NCBI GenBank assembly: GCA_025351345.1
Contig: JANXWB010000024.1
Coordinates: 1 to 53,891 of the forward strand
Reading direction: 5' to 3'
Length of the DNA stretch: 53,891 bases
Source of the DNA: Synechococcales cyanobacterium GL140_1_metabat_312
Lineage (GTDB): Bacteria; Cyanobacteriota; Cyanobacteriia; Leptolyngbyales; Leptolyngbyaceae
Shown: piece after piece, positions 7,929 through 46,933 of the stretch
How positions within the stretch are numbered: position 1 is the stretch's first letter
How the letters are laid out: every line of letters starts with the position of its first letter
The notes under the pieces: generated by a model
The model's database searches: none
Told to the model about the DNA's origin: nothing
What the model saw: the letters and a program-made list of their open reading frames with translations, nothing else
Position numbers and translations under genes: made by a program

Positions 7929-8795
7929 TTACTCCGCTAGAATTTCTTTTATGGCTTGCCACATTCGTTGTAGTTTTTGCACCATTCCGATCGGATTAGT
8001 TGCTGGATCATCATCCACCAAATCGACCATACGTTGAATCCGGTCCATCCGCTCAGCGACAGAATATAGGCTATTAATGGCTTCATCTTTACGTTCCATA
8101 GAATCCCGGAGAACTATAGCCATCTCGGAAATTTCCTGCTTCAATTTTTGATTTTCTTTCTTGCGACGAGTTTCCCAACCCTTGACCCCTGCTTTCGATC
8201 GGCGTTCAGTTTTAAGTTCTGATTGGGTTTCATTGTATAAAGTCAAATAGCGATCGCGGTGTCCTTGAACTTCATTCAATTGAATTACCAATTCATCGCC
8301 TCTAACTTTTTCTGCCTCATACATTGTCAGATAAGATTGGGTTTGAGTTTGAGAATCCTGATGAAGCCTAAAATAAGATTGAGCTTGAGTCTTTGCTGCT
8401 TCAAGTTCATCAATTGCCGCTTTTCCCTTTAGTCCCTTTCGTTGCTCTTCAGCATAAAGAGTGAGAATCGATTTATACTGAATTTTTACTTCATTCAACT
8501 GAATTCTTAACTCATCACCTTTAACTTTTTCTGAGTCATACATTGTCAGATATGATTGGGCTTGAATTTTTGCCCCTTGAAGTTCTGAGCTTATTACTTC
8601 AACGTGTCTCGTTTTTTCTTCAACCTTCTCATTAGACTTATCTAGTTCTACCTGAGCCTCATCACGCTGGATTCTTACGTTTTTTAGTAGCTGTTGAAGC
8701 TCTTTATCAGGAGTGGGTTCTTGTCTGCGAGAAGTAGGGTTCTTTTTTGCATTATCATCAGATTCAGTTCCCCGATCGCTTCTCTTCATTGGCAT
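7929..8795 (-). CDS. Hypothetical coiled-coil protein with an internal repeat
   Basis: 288 residues, strongly charged and helical. A 24-residue unit beginning QSYLTMY and containing GDEL.IQLNEV occurs at 80-103 and again at 153-176, and a partial third copy (QSYFRL) starts at 139. A KGWETRRKKENQ motif near 205-216 resembles the basic GWETRR segment found in various small DNA-associated or phage-like proteins. A C-terminal region MVQKLQRMWQAIKEIL may be an interaction helix. No known domain is recognised. The gene is first of a two-gene unit with the protein at 7441-7923. Confidence 0.6.
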   Translation of the reverse strand: MPMKRSDRGTESDDNAKKNPTSRRQEPTPDKELQQLLKNVRIQRDEAQVELDKSNEKVEEKTRHVEVISSELQGAKIQAQSYLTMYDSEKVKGDELRIQLNEVKIQYKSILTLYAEEQRKGLKGKAAIDELEAAKTQAQSYFRLHQDSQTQTQSYLTMYEAEKVRGDELVIQLNEVQGHRDRYLTLYNETQSELKTERRSKAGVKGWETRRKKENQKLKQEISEMAIVLRDSMERKDEAINSLYSVAERMDRIQRMVDLVDDDPATNPIGMVQKLQRMWQAIKEILAE

Positions 8796-9028: not shown

Positions 9029-9604
9029 ATGAACACCATCCTTGTCCAACTCAATCCTGATATTCAATTAACCGATCGGCAATTTCAAAAGCTTTGCCAA
9101 AACAATCGCAACCTCAATTTTGAACGTAGTGCTCAAGGAGATCTAATTATTATGTCCCCTACAGGAGGCAGTACCGGCAACCGTAATGGTCGTCTTAATC
9201 AACAACTTTTTAACTGGAGCGATCGCGATCGCTCAGGGATTGCCTTTGACTCATCAACAGGATTTAAATTGCCCAATGGAGCCGATCGATCTCCTGATGC
9301 TGCATGGATCACAAACGATCGGTGGAATGCCTTAACCCTAGATGAGCAAGATAGATTTATTCCTCTCTGTCCTGATTTCGTAGTGGAATTGATGTCGCCG
9401 AGTGATAGCCGATCGGTGTTGCAATCTAAAATGCAAGAATATCAAGACAATGGTGTGAGATTGGGAATTTTGATCGATCGCACAATCAAACAAGTCGAGA
9501 TCTATCGAATTGGAAAAACAATACAAACGATCGATCGGCCTGAAATAATTTCCGGTGAAGACGTTCTACCAGGATTTGAATTAAAAATGAATTTAATTTG
9601 GTAA
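9029..9604 (+). CDS. Uma2 family endonuclease (DUF820)
   Basis: 191 residues with the Uma2 layout: LTDRQFQKLCQNN..LNFERSAQGDLIIMSPTGG at the N-terminus, SPDAAWI supplying an acidic residue, and FVVELMSPSDS..LQSKMQEYQDNGV with the Glu/Lys residues of a PD-(D/E)xK-like core. Cyanobacteria often carry dozens of paralogues. They are predicted nucleases but their role is unsettled. The start ATG follows a short AT-rich leader. It converges with hemA. Confidence 0.85.
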   Translation: MNTILVQLNPDIQLTDRQFQKLCQNNRNLNFERSAQGDLIIMSPTGGSTGNRNGRLNQQLFNWSDRDRSGIAFDSSTGFKLPNGADRSPDAAWITNDRWNALTLDEQDRFIPLCPDFVVELMSPSDSRSVLQSKMQEYQDNGVRLGILIDRTIKQVEIYRIGKTIQTIDRPEIISGEDVLPGFELKMNLIW

Positions 9605-11160: not shown

Positions 11161-12177
11161 CTAGTTGACCAACTGAATGGTTTTACCCGGTTCCCACATG
11201 TGAATCGTATCGACGAATCGTGCAGTTTTTGATTCGCTGGAGACCACAAGAGTCTGAGTCCGTGCGCCGCCAGGGAAGTAGCGAACGCCTTGGAGCCAGT
11301 TACAGGACGTAATCCCAGTTCCGACAAACATTACTTTGTCACCAGAGGCAAGTTCATCTGCCGTATAAATCTTGTCAGGATCGGTAATACCCATGCTGAG
11401 CATCCGAGCAATGTTGGCTTCCTTGCTTTCGCCGATCAAGCCTGTCTTCACGATCGCCGGATCATAGATCAACTGACCTTGAAAGTGAGCGCCCATGCAT
11501 TTCAGCGCAGCCGCACTGATAACACCTTCAGGTGCCGCACCAATTCCCATGAGGGCATGGATTCCAGAATCCGAGAAACCGCAGTTAATGGCCGCGCCGA
11601 CATCACCATCGCCGATCAATTGAACCCGAGCACCCGCAGTCCGAATTTCTTTGATCAAGTCATTGTGACGTTCGCGCTTCATAACGATGACGGTGAGGTC
11701 ATTGATAGGAATATCAAGGCACTGGGACAAGATTTGAAGGTTTTCAGTCGCAGATTTGCTGATGTCTACTTTGCCTTTAGCGGCTTGAGGGGCGGCCAAT
11801 TTCTTCATATAGAAGTCAGGCGCAGCAAACAATCCACCTTTTTCAGCGATCGCCAACACGGCAATAGCACCCGCTTGACTGTAAGCGCAAAGGTTAGTCC
11901 CTTCACAAGGATCCACAGCAATGTCGATCTCTGGGCCTGTGCCATCTTTGTGGCCAAGACCCACTTCTTCGCCAATGAAAAGCATTGGCGCGTCATCTCG
12001 CTCACCTTCACCAATAACGATCCGACCGCGCATAGCGACCTTATTCATCCGTTCCCGCATGGCTTCCACAGCAGCTTCGTCTGCGCCATCTTTGTCACCC
12101 TTTCCGGTCAAACGGGAGGATGCGATCGCGGCGGCTTCCACAACTTCAATAATCTCTAAACCAAGCTTGCTTTCCAT
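11161..12177 (-). CDS. glpX: Class II fructose-1,6-/sedoheptulose-1,7-bisphosphatase
   Basis: The first residues [20 protein letters not shown] and the motifs [13 protein letters not shown] and [11 protein letters not shown] identify the GlpX-type metal-dependent phosphatase. In cyanobacteria this enzyme dephosphorylates both FBP and SBP in the Calvin cycle and gluconeogenesis. A GTG at 12183 gives two more residues, but the ATG at 12177 matches the usual cyanobacterial start. About 338 residues, near the family norm. hemA follows in the same direction. Confidence 0.95.
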
Positions 12178-38911: not shown

Positions 38912-39247
38912 TCAAAATATAATTGGCCTGATTCTTCTGAGAACATCTTGGAGCAAGAGGTCCGGACAATCCCCCATAAACTGGGCACCTCTAGCGCCAA
39001 AATCCAACGATCGTGTCTGGTCTACCATAATCACTCCAGTCACGACCTCTCCATCTGGAATACAGACATAGAAGGAATTCCGACGTTTTGTATTACTGAT
39101 AGGACAAACAAATGCTAATCCCATTCTCTCGTTAAATCCATCATGACTAACAACCAGTGCTGGGCGATTTCCCATTTGCTCATGTCCAGCTTGCGGATCG
39201 AAACTAATCCAGATGAAATGCCCACGCTTGGGAATATAGCTCACCAA
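38912..39247 (-). CDS. MazF/PemK-type mRNA interferase toxin
   Basis: 111 residues: YIPKRGHFIWISFDPQAGHEQMGNRPALVVSHDGFNE, LAFVCPISN and VTGVIMVDQTRSLDF, the MazF barrel with the Arg-Pro-Ala block. The start overlaps the end of the antitoxin gene by 7 bases. The pair forms an intact MazEF-type module. Confidence 0.9.
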   Translation of the reverse strand: MVSYIPKRGHFIWISFDPQAGHEQMGNRPALVVSHDGFNERMGLAFVCPISNTKRRNSFYVCIPDGEVVTGVIMVDQTRSLDFGARGAQFMGDCPDLLLQDVLRRIRPIIF

Positions 39248-39483
39248 ATCTCATTCCCCATAGGCCCGCCCCAATTGACCTCAGGCTCAGGCGGATCAAT
39301 GACTCCCGCTAGAAGTTCTTCTAGGGTTAACTCTGGCAGAATCTGAGTGCGAACTAACACCAATCGCCCCTCTTCTACAGTACATTCTACTGAATCGTTA
39401 GGCTTTAAATCCAGCGCTTCAACAACGTATTTAGGAAGTCGTACGGCTAACGAGTTTCCCCATTGACCTATTTGTGAACGCAT
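39241..39483 (-). CDS. AbrB/MazE-type antitoxin
   Basis: 80 residues: the SpoVT-AbrB start SQIGQWGNSLAVRLPKYVVEALDLKPNDSVECTVEEGRLVL, then an acidic tail (LTLEELLAGVIDPPEPEVNWG) that should bind the toxin. It precedes and overlaps the MazF-like gene. Between recR and the response regulator it looks like a self-contained insertion, but no flanking duplication was seen. Confidence 0.9.
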   Translation of the reverse strand: MRSQIGQWGNSLAVRLPKYVVEALDLKPNDSVECTVEEGRLVLVRTQILPELTLEELLAGVIDPPEPEVNWGGPMGNEIW

Positions 39484-42500: not shown

Positions 42501-43325
42501 ATGGAATTCGTCATTGCTTCACTCTTAGCGCTCAGTGTGGTCGCCGCAAAAGGAATCAACATCGATCGAGAATATCAACGGGGGATTATCTTTCGGTTGG
42601 GTCGCAACTATTCGGTAAAAGGACCGGGATTGTATTGGATTGTGCCGTTAGTCGATCAAAAAGTACAGGTCGATATTCGGACTAAGACCATTGACATTGA
42701 ACCGCAAGAAACCGTCACCGCCGATAGTGTCACCATTCGCGTTAATGCCGTTCTCTATTACCGCATCATCGATCCGTCCAAAGCCATTAACCGAGTCGAA
42801 AGTTATCAAGTGGCCGTTTACCAGATTGCACTCACTACATTGCGCAATGTTGTCGGACAAAATAGCCTTGATGATGTGCTTCAAAAGCGAGACAAAATCA
42901 ATAATGCAGTTCAATCGATCGTCGATGAGGTGACGGAATCTTGGGGCGTTGCGATCGAACGAGTAGAGATTAAGGATGTCGAGATTCCGCAATCCATGCA
43001 GCGAGCAATGGCAAAGGAAGCAGAGGCACTTCGCGAAAAACGTGCCCGCATCATTAAGGCCGCCGCCGAACAAGAGGCATCCCAAAAGCTCTCGGAAGCT
43101 GCGGCCCAAATTTCAGGCAATCCGATTGCTCTAGAACTTCGTCGGATGCAAATGCTGACGGAAATTGGAGCCGAAAATAACACGACGACTCTTGTGATGA
43201 TGCCCACTGAGTTCATCAACATGGCAAGAACGATCGCCCAAGGTTCAACTCCAAGTCCCACCATAAACCCAGTCCCTGAGACTGTTCCAGTTAATGCGAT
43301 CGTTCGGACGGCTGAAGAGAGCTAG
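42501..43325 (+). CDS. Slipin / stomatin-like SPFH protein
   Basis: 274 residues: a short N-terminal hydrophobic anchor, REYQRGIIFRLGRNYSVKGPGLYWIVP and RTKTIDIEPQETVTADSVTIRVNAVLYYRI (SPFH core), then a coiled coil with AKEAEALREKRARIIKAAAEQEASQKL. SPFH proteins scaffold membrane microdomains. Its usual NfeD-like membrane protease partner is not adjacent. Confidence 0.92.
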   Translation: MEFVIASLLALSVVAAKGINIDREYQRGIIFRLGRNYSVKGPGLYWIVPLVDQKVQVDIRTKTIDIEPQETVTADSVTIRVNAVLYYRIIDPSKAINRVESYQVAVYQIALTTLRNVVGQNSLDDVLQKRDKINNAVQSIVDEVTESWGVAIERVEIKDVEIPQSMQRAMAKEAEALREKRARIIKAAAEQEASQKLSEAAAQISGNPIALELRRMQMLTEIGAENNTTTLVMMPTEFINMARTIAQGSTPSPTINPVPETVPVNAIVRTAEES

Positions 43326-43412
43326 ACCATGAAATTACGCAGACGCGAGTGATTGTATTTCGGCTTAAGCGATTGATGAAGCGTAAACATCGATCTAGAG
43401 AAAGCTGCGATC

Positions 43413-43457
43413 GTTCTTGGGAAAAGATTACGTATTGAATTGATTTAAGTGCGATCG
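43413..43457. repeat. Imperfect 45-bp repeat flanking the slipin gene (copy 2)
   Basis: Second copy of the repeat described at 42271. It lies about 50 bases from the end of the ATPase-nuclease gene. Confidence 0.7.
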
Positions 43458-43504
43458 GCAAAAATTCATTATCCTAGGAGCATCTCTCCTAATCTAGTTG
43501 CATG

Positions 43505-45256
43505 TCAGATTTTCAATGTTATTTGGGATGTAATGTTGATAACAGTGTTTGGCTCAATACAGACTTCTCCACTAGATATTTTAGTATTAATCTTATCTTT
43601 AATAGTTGGACTAATTTTTATTATCTTACTTAGATCTTCAAGATCCTTAAAAGGTCGTTTTTCAATCAATGTATCGATTGCTTTATCTTTCATCCATGTT
43701 CCTTTTAGAGCAATTTTGATTTCTTGTTTTTGGGAGCTATTTAAATCGATCGATTTTTTAACAATTTGTGTCCCCGTAACTACTTTATCACTTTGAATAA
43801 TAACTACTTTATCACTTTGAATAAAATGAATATTCTGTAGCTCTAACTTACGTTGCAAAAGTGTAGGGCAAGAAGGCGCAATCATAAATGCTAAATCATA
43901 CGAATCAGAAGCTGATCCCCTAAACCCGACATCCTGTAGCCATTGGCTAAATGTATCTAAATGGCTGCTCAAAAGCTCATAATTTTTTGCTTCTCCAAAA
44001 CATCTACCAACAGCAACACCATTATGAAGTAATTCCACATAGCAGTCAAAAGCATGTTTTTCAAGAATAGTTGTTGTTGAAACTTCAGATAAGGTATACG
44101 ATTTCTGCGTTAAAAAATTCTTCCAATGTTGACGTGACTGAGCTGCGACCAAATCACGAGCTTTCCCTTCAAAATTCTGCTCTGGTGCTTCTTTAAAATA
44201 TTTCTCATAAATTTCAAGTATAGCCCTTGAATATTCCTGACAAAAACCTCTCAAGGTTAAGTCGGATTTCAATGAGATTTGTTCAATTTCTAACCATGCA
44301 ACATTAAAATCTTTATATCCTTTAAAAGCTCCTTTAATTCGATTATTTATCTTGCTCTTAATCATTTCAAATTCAGATTGATACCCAGTATTCAAATTGA
44401 CAACATTTTGAGAAACAAGACTTTCGATCACTGGATCATCACGAAACAAATCTTTAACATTCTCATTAGTTCCTACTAAGTAAACAAACAGTCGTATCTC
44501 CGATTTGAATCGCGCTCTTACTCCCTTGAGCAAAGACCTGATAACAACTAGCGTTTGTTGCCTTTCCTTCGATTGATTTTCTAAGCCATCTAATTCATCA
44601 ATTAAACAAACAAATACGTGATGTGGAGCGACTCTCCAAATTCCATCAAACGTATCAAATAGGAACTCCAGCAAATTAATGGGAGTTGAAGAAAATAGTT
44701 TTATAAAATTAGAACGCAAGAATTGTAATTTATTCGCTGAAACAAGTCGATTCACATCATCTGGATTGAGATATCCTCCTAAAATATTTTTAGCTCTTTC
44801 TTGTACTAAATATTCTGTCGTGTGGAGTAAATTCCAAAAAATATCAGCTAAAATATAGCAATAAAACTTTATATTAAAAGGAAAATCTCCTCCTAAGTTC
44901 AATATGTCTGTAATTGGAAATCTACTTATAATAAATTTGTTCTGATAATTAGAATTAGCTTTAATTAACTCATCCAAGTATACGAGAAGAGATGTTTTCC
45001 CACTTCCCTTCATAGCTGTAATAATTCTAAAAGTGAAGAATCCGCCATGGAAGCTATGCTTTAAGTCATCCTCAAGGAGTTCGGTAATATTATTTATTTT
45101 TCGGCCAGATAAACTTATTGCAGTTGATCCCTCCCCTAAAGATTTTGGACTTCTTATATTTCGCTCGATCCAAATATCTTCGATGAAACCTTCCCCTGAG
45201 CTAATACTCATAAGAAAGTTTTGAATATTCTTTTTCTTTCCAGCATCTTCAGGCAT
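43505..45256 (-). CDS. ORC-like ATPase fused to a PD-(D/E)xK nuclease and a helix-hairpin-helix
   Basis: 583 residues. The P-loop ATPase (about 40-330) has Walker A MKGSGKTS (82-89), Walker B VFVCLIDELDGL (214-225) and a candidate sensor Asn in GTNENV (264). Next, at about 395-460, FDCYVEL..GRCFGEAKNYELL gives Asp404 and Glu422-x-Lys424, a PD-(D/E)xK nuclease pattern. A linker with a perfect 24-base duplication follows, then a ComEA-like HhH at about 504-556 (KAIDTLIEKRPFKDLEDLSKI). The winged-helix partner gene ends 5 bases upstream. The G+C is low and HIP1 sites are nearly absent, which suggests foreign origin. Confidence 0.75.
   Translation of the reverse strand: MPEDAGKKKNIQNFLMSISSGEGFIEDIWIERNIRSPKSLGEGSTAISLSGRKINNITELLEDDLKHSFHGGFFTFRIITAMKGSGKTSLLVYLDELIKANSNYQNKFIISRFPITDILNLGGDFPFNIKFYCYILADIFWNLLHTTEYLVQERAKNILGGYLNPDDVNRLVSANKLQFLRSNFIKLFSSTPINLLEFLFDTFDGIWRVAPHHVFVCLIDELDGLENQSKERQQTLVVIRSLLKGVRARFKSEIRLFVYLVGTNENVKDLFRDDPVIESLVSQNVVNLNTGYQSEFEMIKSKINNRIKGAFKGYKDFNVAWLEIEQISLKSDLTLRGFCQEYSRAILEIYEKYFKEAPEQNFEGKARDLVAAQSRQHWKNFLTQKSYTLSEVSTTTILEKHAFDCYVELLHNGVAVGRCFGEAKNYELLSSHLDTFSQWLQDVGFRGSASDSYDLAFMIAPSCPTLLQRKLELQNIHFIQSDKVVIIQSDKVVTGTQIVKKSIDLNSSQKQEIKIALKGTWMKDKAIDTLIEKRPFKDLEDLSKIIKISPTIKDKINTKISSGEVCIEPNTVINITSQITLKI
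43777..43824. repeat. Perfect 24-bp tandem duplication inside the ATPase-nuclease gene
   Basis: Two adjacent 24-base copies (43777-43800 and 43801-43824), starting TAACTACTTTATCACTTTG, add an in-frame eight-residue repeat (IQSDKVV-type) in the linker between nuclease and HhH. Confidence 0.9.
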
Positions 45257-45261
45257 TACTG

Positions 45262-45891
45262 TTACTCAATCCATTGAACTAGTTCTACATTTTTCTCGGT
45301 CACAACCAAAATCTCACCATTATTCTTCAGCATTTCAAAATGTTGCTCTACATCTTTTAAGGAGATGGAATTCTGTTCAGCAAACTTTTGACATAGGTCA
45401 TTCTTATAAATGGTAACTACACCGCAGCCTTCTTGTTCTCTTCTTTCTTCAAAGTAAAGCTCTTTAAATTTCTTCTGAAACTCGTTCCATATCATGGCTT
45501 TGGATGTAACAACTTGTCCATGAATTTTAGAAATCTCTTGAATACATCCTAATAAAGCATTGAGAACCTTATATCCTTTAGTAGATATGAATTTATACTC
45601 AGTTTGAGCTAGATTTTGAAGAAGGACTTGATTTCCTTTTTCGGTCAGGAAAAATCGACCTTTCTTTTTAGTTGGACTGCCATCCTTGGTCGCCAACGTG
45701 ATCAGGAGATTATCCAGAAGAAAATTATATATCTTGGATACCTCTGCTCCTAAATCACTTATTTCTGGACTTAAGTCCCTGATTAAGTGAGATTTGACCA
45801 TTCCATTAGTAACAGTCTCCGCTTCCTCCGCTTTAGCATATGCTTTGGTATAAAGCAGATACTTCATTTGTCCTTGAGTCAGTTCCATCAT
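45262..45891 (-). CDS. Winged-helix protein, partner of the ATPase-nuclease
   Basis: 209 residues. The N-terminal half, with LLDNLLITLATKD..KKKGRFFLTEKGNQVLLQ, fits a winged helix (wing KKGRFFLTEKG). A second helical region (KNDLCQKFAEQNSISLKDVEQHFEMLKNNGEILVV) resembles another winged helix. No enzymatic motif is visible. It is the first gene of the cassette, five bases ahead of the ATPase. It could recruit the complex to DNA or repress the operon. RBS GAGGGA precedes two adjacent ATGs. Confidence 0.7.
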   Translation of the reverse strand: MMELTQGQMKYLLYTKAYAKAEEAETVTNGMVKSHLIRDLSPEISDLGAEVSKIYNFLLDNLLITLATKDGSPTKKKGRFFLTEKGNQVLLQNLAQTEYKFISTKGYKVLNALLGCIQEISKIHGQVVTSKAMIWNEFQKKFKELYFEERREQEGCGVVTIYKNDLCQKFAEQNSISLKDVEQHFEMLKNNGEILVVTEKNVELVQWIE

Positions 45892-45907
45892 ATTTCCCTC
45901 TTATAAT

Positions 45908-45917
45908 ACCTATAGGT
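45908..45917. promoter_or_regulatory. Perfect 10-bp palindrome in the promoter of the ATPase-nuclease cassette
   Basis: ACCTATAGGT lies between a weak -35-like TTGCAA and a -10-like TATTAT on the minus strand, just ahead of the winged-helix gene. It could be its own operator. Inference only. Confidence 0.35.
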
Positions 45918-46005
45918 CATTTTTTGCAAAATATGTTCATCAAATAAATAATATCTTGTATTTGGCTCAATTTTGCCAATGTCGCTGTTGCCGAAGCATC
46001 CCTAA

Positions 46006-46254
46006 ATGAAAAATCTAAAATACCTAGCACTATATTCAAAGCAAACTCAAACGCAAAACCCCGATCGTTGGCAAAAGCTACGCCATCAGATGACCATCTT
46101 AAAACAACAATTTCTCAACCCCGATCATCACGCCCAAACCATAAAAGCAACCCTAGTCGAAGTCACCAAAGTAAAATGGGAAGAGAGTTTGATGGTGAAA
46201 GCGATCGTTACCTACCTCGACAAATTCAGCGAAACACCCGACAAAGGAGCCTAG
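46006..46254 (+). CDS. Small hypothetical protein leading a TA operon
   Basis: 82 residues, basic and helical (NPDRWQKLRHQMTILKQQFL, then VTKVKWEESLMVKAIVTYLDK). No known family. It ends three bases before the UPF0175-like antitoxin, so it belongs to the same operon. It may be a regulator or a third TA component. Confidence 0.55.
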   Translation: MKNLKYLALYSKQTQTQNPDRWQKLRHQMTILKQQFLNPDHHAQTIKATLVEVTKVKWEESLMVKAIVTYLDKFSETPDKGA

Positions 46255-46257
46255 CAC

Positions 46258-46560
46258 ATGCAACTTAAGATCGACCTCCCCGACAACCTTTCCCTAAGCG
46301 AAACCACCATCCGTACCGAACTCGCGATCGGCCTCTTCCAACAAAAAACATTGCTCATCGAGCAAGCCGCCCAACTTATCGCCATCGACGTTAATGACTT
46401 CTATCAAATCCTCGTTGATCGCAACATCCTTACCCCGCCCAGCAACCCTGACGATGACCCCGACGAACTCATTCTCGCCCATCTCCGAATCTCCCTGCAA
46501 GAAGTCAAAGAAAGCAAAGTAAAACCTGCTTCCGAACTGTGGGATAACATCAATGATTGA
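46258..46560 (+). CDS. UPF0175/RelB-like antitoxin
   Basis: 100 residues. The N-terminal part (SLSETTIRTELAIGLFQQKTLLIEQAAQLIAIDVNDFYQILVDRNI) matches the UPF0175 helix-turn-helix. The C-terminal part (ELILAHLRISLQEVKESKVKPASELWDNI) matches the toxin-binding tail of RelE-type antitoxins. It overlaps the toxin start by 8 bases. Confidence 0.8.
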   Translation: MQLKIDLPDNLSLSETTIRTELAIGLFQQKTLLIEQAAQLIAIDVNDFYQILVDRNILTPPSNPDDDPDELILAHLRISLQEVKESKVKPASELWDNIND

Positions 46561-46933
46561 ATCCGCTCCTCCGCCAATTCAACTCCTCACCGCCCCCGAT
46601 TTTCAAGCCCAAATTCGTCGCTTGAATAAACGCTATCGAAACCTCCGCACCGACCTACAATCTCTCTTCGATGAACTCCAAACGGGTAACTGTCCAGGCG
46701 ATCAAATCTCCGGTACCCCCTTCACCGTATTCAAAATCCGCGTCAAAAACAGCGACATTCAAAAAGGCAAAAGTGCTGGCTATCGGGTTATCTACCAGAA
46801 AAGAGACGATCGTTCCATTCTACTCATCACCATCTATTCCAAATCCGACGAAAGCACAATCCTCGCCAGCAACATCCGTGATATCGTTGATGCCTACAAC
46901 AACTCAAATGCTCCTCCCACTCAGAAACCCTAG
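46553..46933 (+). CDS. RelE/HigB-like toxin
   Basis: 126 residues: QIRRLNKRYRNLRTDLQSLFDELQTG..FKIRVKNSDIQKGKSAGYRVIYQKRDDRSILLITIYSKSD, the RelE-type core with a basic face and C-terminal aromatic/Ser residues. It likely cleaves mRNA. The start overlaps the antitoxin end, so translation is coupled. Confidence 0.82.
   Translation: MIESAPPPIQLLTAPDFQAQIRRLNKRYRNLRTDLQSLFDELQTGNCPGDQISGTPFTVFKIRVKNSDIQKGKSAGYRVIYQKRDDRSILLITIYSKSDESTILASNIRDIVDAYNNSNAPPTQKP

Follow-up and report, generated by a model that had tools for sequence, protein, structure and literature searches.

A two-gene cyanobacterial cassette encoding an ORC-like ATPase/nuclease fusion and a winged-helix partner is a candidate mobile restriction-type defense module

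A pair of adjacent genes was examined on contig JANXWB010000024.1 (assembly GCA_025351345.1) of Synechococcales cyanobacterium GL140_1_metabat_312, the whole 53,891-base stretch of which was analyzed and is referred to here as the window. Both genes lie on the minus strand. The first (45262..45891) encodes a 209-residue protein in which helices connect two winged-helix domains, as judged from an AlphaFold2 model and an alignment of 37 rows, and the second (43505..45256) follows after 5 bases and encodes a 583-residue protein in which an ORC-like ATPase, a PD-(D/E)xK nuclease and a helix-hairpin-helix (HhH) region are joined, as judged from an AlphaFold2 model and 35 further alignment rows. These coordinates, both protein lengths and the gap are exactly those given in a first-pass annotation of the DNA. 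Each gene is present as one copy in its own genome. We consider it probable, at roughly 0.6, that the pair is a horizontally moving, self-contained two-gene module of restriction-type defense; the narrower prediction that it cuts DNA in some way is held with high confidence.

The ATPase domain is of the ORC/Cdc6-type AAA+ kind and spans approximately residues 3–354 (44195..45250, minus strand), with Walker A at residues 84–89 (GSGKTS) and Walker B at residues 217–221 (LIDELDGL). In the AlphaFold2 model (mean predicted local distance difference test score (pLDDT) 87.0, predicted template modeling score (pTM) 0.63), VIA-align placed residues 9–354 on Aeropyrum ORC2 (1w5t_A) with a Z score of 16.9 and a root-mean-square deviation of 4.0 over 252 residues. 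The best 25 VIA-align rows were all ORC/Cdc6 proteins, and Foldseek matched an ORC/Cdc6-type domain at E 1.9e-5. Further folds retrieved for the ATPase were TnsC (Z 12.6–14.2), BrxC (Z 13.2) and RdrA (Z 12.9), of which BrxC and RdrA are defense ATPases. Matches to the ATPase took up the VIA-align list, which barely probes the rest of the chain; other families are possible there. In the alignment of 36 rows (the window copy and 35 loci, including L064 as a C-terminal part), the Walker residues are near-invariant, with Asp replacing Glu221 at locus L047. The NCBIfam model for Sll1717-family ATPases (NF047389) matched residues 77–322 at E 2.4e-6, its 26.9 bits falling short of the cut-off of 75, and this was the one profile match of note for the larger protein; such ATPases are common in the genomes of relatives (28 of 39 at E 0.001, 11 above the cut-off). 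Pfam gave no match below E 0.1 for the 583-residue protein, no sequence relative was found in the PDB below E 0.1, and the best PHROGs match was at E 0.0079. In ORC/Cdc6 proteins, the ATPase is normally followed by a winged helix on the same chain. None is seen at that place in the model, where a nuclease-type domain stands instead.

This nuclease domain (approximately residues 358–480; 43817..44185, minus strand) was delimited from the model, the alignment and Foldseek. It consists of a helix at 358–377, short strands, two long strands at 401–411 (broken at 404) and 414–423, a helix at 430–442 and a strand at 455–460, followed by a further helix and strand. The order of these elements is that of the PD-(D/E)xK core. 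The catalytic residues Asp404, Glu422 and Lys424 lie within or next to the two long strands, and none of the three varies in any of the 36 aligned rows. Foldseek matched 2vld, a repair endonuclease from Pyrococcus that we take to be NucS, at E 4.7e-3 (probability 1.00, 115–118 columns, template modeling score 0.31–0.32 on the target); the match is reported without its aligned range, and we infer that it falls on the nuclease part. The region thus looks built as a DNA nuclease of PD-(D/E)xK type, with cleavage predicted from the modeled fold and the conserved residues.

The C-terminal HhH region (approximately residues 510–561; 43574..43729, minus strand) is formed by four helices in the model and is recognized by profiles at the level of the family: at E values up to 0.1, Pfam HHH_3 matched 8 of the 36 members and the ComEA-type NCBIfam model TIGR00426 matched 7, these being other members, with no HhH profile matching the window's own protein. 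The linker between nuclease and HhH is variable in length in the family alignment, and its residues 487–500 have a pLDDT under 50. A repeat search located a 24-bp perfect tandem duplication in this linker (43777..43824, minus strand), and at locus L019 the same linker holds a 63-bp tandem duplication (two copies, 92%; 8614–8739). At L047 (10001–12451), WD40-type repeats occupy the position of the HhH, which suggests that the C-terminal module is exchangeable.

The 209-residue protein was modeled with a mean pLDDT of 87.3 and a pTM of 0.57. Its first winged helix comprises helices at 6–18, 29–39 and 47–60 and strands at 64–67 and 79–82, and its second comprises helices at 163–174 and 178–190 and strands at 194–199 and 202–207. 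By VIA-align, the N-terminal half resembles MarR-type and ORC winged helices and the C-terminal half those of SAMD1 and KAT6A, at Z scores of about 9–10.6 that are middling for so small a fold; residues beyond 1–108 were barely probed by this comparison, and other families are possible. Foldseek returned no match at E 0.001 or better, and Pfam returned sub-threshold matches only. The domain architecture proposed in the first-pass annotation, namely an ORC-like ATPase with the two motifs above, a nuclease core of Asp404, Glu422 and Lys424, a C-terminal HhH and a winged-helix partner, is supported, with the HhH resting on model helices and matches in relatives.

Related loci were sought in a one-genome-per-species collection of 84,980 species. 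A profile scan identified 41, all cyanobacterial by title; because its patterns were built on the nuclease region, the scan would overlook relatives that lack these motifs. A single-sequence scan of genome contigs identified none. In a sample of the phylum, 8 of 386 genomes contained a match (own genome included, that in G207 being partial), and in a sample of the family 6 of 42 did, three at full length (own genome included) and three as weak matches to the C-terminal end. The partner lies directly upstream of the larger homologue, in the same order, at 36 of the 41 loci. The gap between the genes is 3–5 bases at 34 of these and 16 bases at L058 and L065, and the larger gene is split at L056 and L057. 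Two of the five exceptions (L059 and L060) run off a contig end, two (L062 and L063) are C-terminal remnants inside contigs, and the fifth (L064) starts in the middle of the protein, behind an in-frame stop and 71 bases away from a contig end.

The near-constant spacing of 3–5 bases, the position of the smaller gene as the first of the two and the similarity of its first domain to MarR-type repressors (Z about 10) could also be read as those of an autorepressor, whose main role would be to silence a toxic nuclease in the manner of toxin-antitoxin or abortive-infection systems and which would be no structural subunit. This alternative is compatible with defense, and we regard it as rather unlikely. 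Across 29 upstream regions, no operator-like motif was shared beyond the ribosome-binding-site-like AAGAGGAA, a Shine-Dalgarno-like sequence found in 8 of the 29, with the best 8-mer of shuffled sequences reaching 7; in the window, promoter-like and terminator-like sites in 43300–46300 were no commoner than in shuffles. Moreover, a second pair of winged-helix protein and AAA ATPase was observed within a Planktothrix locus that holds the module (L018, 2466–5231), and its winged-helix protein, which precedes a different AAA ATPase, is related to the 209-residue protein (hhalign 92.4%); a role as partner of the ATPase explains this more readily than one as a repressor only. Pairs of winged-helix protein and ATPase may form a wider family. 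That the 669-residue ATPase of this second pair is a close relative of the 583-residue protein was considered and is unsupported, as hhalign gave 13.5% and aligned the P-loop surroundings only.

The cassette is A+T-rich, as the first-pass annotation had stated, with a G+C content of 33.8% versus 45.5% in the rest of the window, and 2 of 516 sliding windows of cassette size are equally low. Its single CGATCG was likewise confirmed, against 281 in the 53,891 bases of the window (5.2 per kb). CGATCG is a highly iterated palindrome 1 (HIP1)-type site, and the full HIP1 octamer is GCGATCGC. This octamer occurs only 22 times in the window compared with the 281 CGATCG sites, which suggests a variant HIP1 context in this genome. 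Across the relatives, module G+C is below that of the flanks at 34 of 35 loci, by a mean of 7 points. Together, 37 modules (88,996 bases) contain the octamer once; for the 34 whose flanks are long enough, 58.2 would be expected from those flanks and 1 was observed. The rows in these G+C and HIP1 counts are related and are not independent events. In a tree of 35 proteins, groups cross families, Microcoleaceae are scattered, and the two copies of Nostoc mirabile (L028 and L034) fall on separate branches. The window copy groups with an uncultured cyanobacterium and Acaryochloris, with Planktothrix and one Microcoleus adjoining; its end branch is long, and the program flags its place as unsure. 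Low G+C, the lack of HIP1 and the protein tree together support the transfer inferred in the first-pass annotation, and the gene pair appears to have been transferred horizontally between genomes.

A more speculative reading is that the pair might be a stand-alone immune nuclease, confined to cyanobacteria, that tells self from foreign by HIP1-type CGATCG sites, or by their methylation, without a methyltransferase of its own. Such a mark would be present all along host chromosomes and missing from invaders. Its recognition would be the task of the tandem winged-helix subunit, and DNA lacking it would cause the ORC-type motor to activate the nuclease. The second winged helix of the 209-residue protein does resemble winged helices solved with DNA (SAMD1 and KAT6A). 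Transfer together with low G+C accounts equally well for the scarcity of HIP1 in the modules, and we consider this reading highly improbable.

Another alternative is that the pair is an accessory factor of DNA repair, recombination or competence and not a defense system. Among the solved nucleases listed by Foldseek, only 2vld fits, and it is a repair endonuclease of an archaeon; the HhH is of ComEA type, and many genes neighboring the relatives are housekeeping genes (see below). Patchy occurrence in the phylum, low G+C, HIP1 poverty and the broken copies, that is, the remnants at L062 and L063 and the split genes at L056 and L057, would be unusual for a core repair gene, and such a role is judged unlikely.

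A further alternative is that the unit is itself a mobile element or a derivative of one, in which a TnsC-like ATPase and a TnsA-like nuclease would serve their own transfer and the winged-helix protein would select the site. TnsC is among the closest folds of the ATPase, the cassette occupies many unrelated sites, and phage-integrase-family genes lie near L029 and L031. At L050 (Scytonema), 35-bp direct repeats that are 94% identical (9060–9094 and 12049–12083) flank the module, possibly as a duplication made on insertion, and a 15-bp perfect inverted repeat flanks it at L054. Against such an element, no integrase or transposase was recognized in the unit, direct repeats like those of L050 were not seen at four other loci checked, and the five loci compared have no terminal repeats in common. 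The unit is also single-copy in its own genome, appears to have been inherited in place in two groups of relatives, and at its Planktothrix site replaces other cargo, of which remnants persist, rather than being cleanly inserted. In congeners of the window's source, the sequences on either side of the module match different contigs, so no clean comparison with an empty site was obtained. We consider it unlikely that the pair is, or derives from, such an element.

The Planktothrix site carries most of the argument for defense. A query with the flanking sequence matched all 10 Planktothrix genomes, nine of them with the glycosyltransferase gene that borders the site; in the tenth, whose genome is 73% complete, all matches were short and repeat-like. 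The module is next to this gene in two of the nine, G255 and G262. A type II restriction-modification pair stands beside it in G262, and in G255 there is a fragment of a methyltransferase of the type found in G429 (by DNA match, with the reading frame assigned by eye). The G429 site itself holds a DUF6615 protein, a type II methyltransferase and a restriction endonuclease (REase), and the G425 site holds an LRR-Roc-COR protein with the same methyltransferase (recognized by eye and DNA match only). A C5-type methyltransferase and a protein with a sub-threshold AlwI match were found in G428, while the sites of G430, G157 and G426 encode proteins without a match in the open reading frames scanned, along with a tubulin-like gene in G426. 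In G424, whose flanks are 98% identical, approximately 276 bp with a 52-residue GmrSD_N fragment remain; this is the nearest module-free site and is not cleanly empty. Restriction-type genes or their fragments are thus present in six of the nine genomes, both module carriers among them, and this glycosyltransferase-adjacent slot (L108–L114, L018 and L019) is a cargo-exchange site. Several other occupants (proteins of 254, 356 and 790 residues and the DUF6615 and LRR-Roc-COR proteins) match no or few defense models and could be undescribed defense genes.

Neighbors elsewhere were assessed with 126 complete, unmasked flanking proteins of at least 100 residues, taken up to three a side at 24 of the 41 loci, with near-duplicate contexts mostly dropped and the window's own flanks left out. 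At a threshold of 1e-5, the PADLOC families listed among these neighbors included mad2 (3), mad3, mad8, AriA, PbeA and PD-T4-6 (2 each) and type II methyltransferases (1). The neighbor matches to mad2, mad3 and mad8 are at 1e-5 or better, the best being to mad3 at E 1.5e-43. Of the two Dolichospermum copies, one (L023, which is the same as L052) has a C5-cytosine methyltransferase beside it and the other (L055) does not.

Several results weigh against the proposed mobile defense module. No PADLOC family occurs in more than 3 of the 126 neighbors (25 listed of 170 matched); these counts have no control set, and neither enrichment nor its absence is claimed. Among the matches listed, many neighbors are ordinary, including EF-Ts, PdxA, cytochrome oxidase, radical SAM and proline dehydrogenase. 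Viral contigs, phage records and plasmids contained no relatives. The nuclease fold is based on one modest Foldseek match together with element order and conserved residues. No known defense model is convincing for the pair; the comparison with named defense systems proposed in the first-pass annotation gave mad8 at E 0.0097 as the best PADLOC match, and with no other mad model matching, membership of the MADS family of systems was rejected. With respect to movement, open reading frames of matched G+C from the flanks (n = 34) are HIP1-poor too, with 7 octamers in 37,554 bases, so composition accounts for part, though not all, of the lack. The module flanks are common to relatives in Nostoc/Brasilonema and in Okeania/Trichodesmium, which indicates inheritance in place within these groups. 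The first-pass annotation had read the layout as one common in phage or plasmid defense. The Planktothrix site and the methyltransferase beside one Dolichospermum copy agree with this, whereas the homologues as a rule are not in obvious defense islands. The expected nuclease layout is present and the homologues occupy no one conserved housekeeping context, yet two groups of relatives share a site. With many housekeeping neighbors, defense is likely at most, and it is favored mainly because of the turnover of the Planktothrix site with restriction-type genes.

The annotation had also placed the cassette in a neighborhood rich in toxin-antitoxin genes, which is only partly borne out: UPF0175-like and ParE-like genes, likely a toxin-antitoxin pair, adjoin the module at 46258–46933. 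Farther away, window positions 38912–39483 presumably encode a MazEF-like pair.

The nuclease in the usual place of the ORC/Cdc6 winged helix and the winged helices in the preceding gene suggest that both proteins form one DNA-loading, ATP-controlled cutting complex. The partner would supply the missing winged helix, bind DNA and help the ATPase to load on double-stranded DNA as an oligomer, the fused nuclease would be licensed to cut by ATP binding or hydrolysis, and the HhH would add grip. No DNA methyltransferase is among the recurrent flanking clusters listed, which makes recognition of modified or foreign DNA likelier than classical restriction-modification. The unit may accordingly work as Type IV restriction enzymes or abortive nucleases do, with modified or structurally foreign DNA of phages or plasmids as its target and not an unmodified site. 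If the pair does serve defense, it would be a very small ORC-motor restriction unit of two genes and 2.4 kb, in which one chain combines the motor with the nuclease and the other holds the winged helices that read DNA. As such it would offer a tractable model of the gating of DNA attack by ORC-clade ATPases (BrxC, SspC, RdrA and TnsC). It would also be a portable candidate system in cyanobacteria, whose defenses beyond restriction-modification are, to our knowledge, little explored. The alternatives weighed above are not all exclusive of defense, and the likelihoods attached to them need not sum to one.

Among known systems, TnsA has a PD-(D/E)xK fold, and the TnsC and TnsA proteins of Tn7-type elements, like the present unit, pair an ORC-like ATPase (TnsC Z as above) with such a nuclease; unlike those elements, the pair has no integrase domain recognized in either protein by profile searches and no common ends at the five loci compared. 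The Sll1717-family P-loop ATPases show weak similarity over residues 77–322, and the match stops before the nuclease and HhH. The likeness to bacteriophage exclusion (BREX) systems consists of the BrxC fold and weak Pfam BrxC_BrxD matches in 7 of the 36 members, and BrxC and BrxD are described as ORC/Cdc6 ATPases, with a winged helix following BrxC, in the portions of PMC12839542 available to us. Here, by contrast, the ATPase carries its own nuclease, and PglZ (PF08665) is missing from the window's whole genome, with 2 of 14 control genomes matching. BREX identity was ruled out by this absence, PglX not having been searched for and the other loci having been read in part.

Also close in concept are the conflict systems that combine ORC/Cdc6 ATPases and REases. 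In the available portions of PMC10853773, these are mobile neighborhoods in which an Orc/Cdc6 ATPase occurs with REases, both active and inactive, with HerA/FtsK and with winged-helix proteins; effectors joining an ORC-clade NTPase to a C-terminal REase are noted as well. The present pair shares with them an Orc/Cdc6-clade ATPase, a restriction-fold nuclease predicted to be active, winged-helix proteins and a mobile setting, as judged from predicted folds, conserved residues and signs of movement. Their HerA/FtsK, inactive REase insert and ASCH or KAP partners (PMC10853773, as available) may set them apart; none of these stands out by eye among the recurrent flanking clusters, no profile search having been aimed at them. 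The present pair has two genes only: one encodes the ATPase in fusion with the nuclease and HhH, and the other, upstream of it, encodes the winged helices. The prokaryotic relatives of CR effectors also place an NTPase before an REase, and HhH and a winged-helix partner go unmentioned for them in the same portions of that source, a distinction of description and not of sequence. An ATPase-REase-HhH protein with a tandem winged-helix gene was not found in the literature searched, as far as the available text of PMC10853773 and PMC12839542 goes. The earlier statement that no named system has this order therefore stands for the exact arrangement, which is undescribed in those portions, and yields on its wider sense, since conflict systems built on an ORC/Cdc6 ATPase and a restriction-type nuclease are already known.

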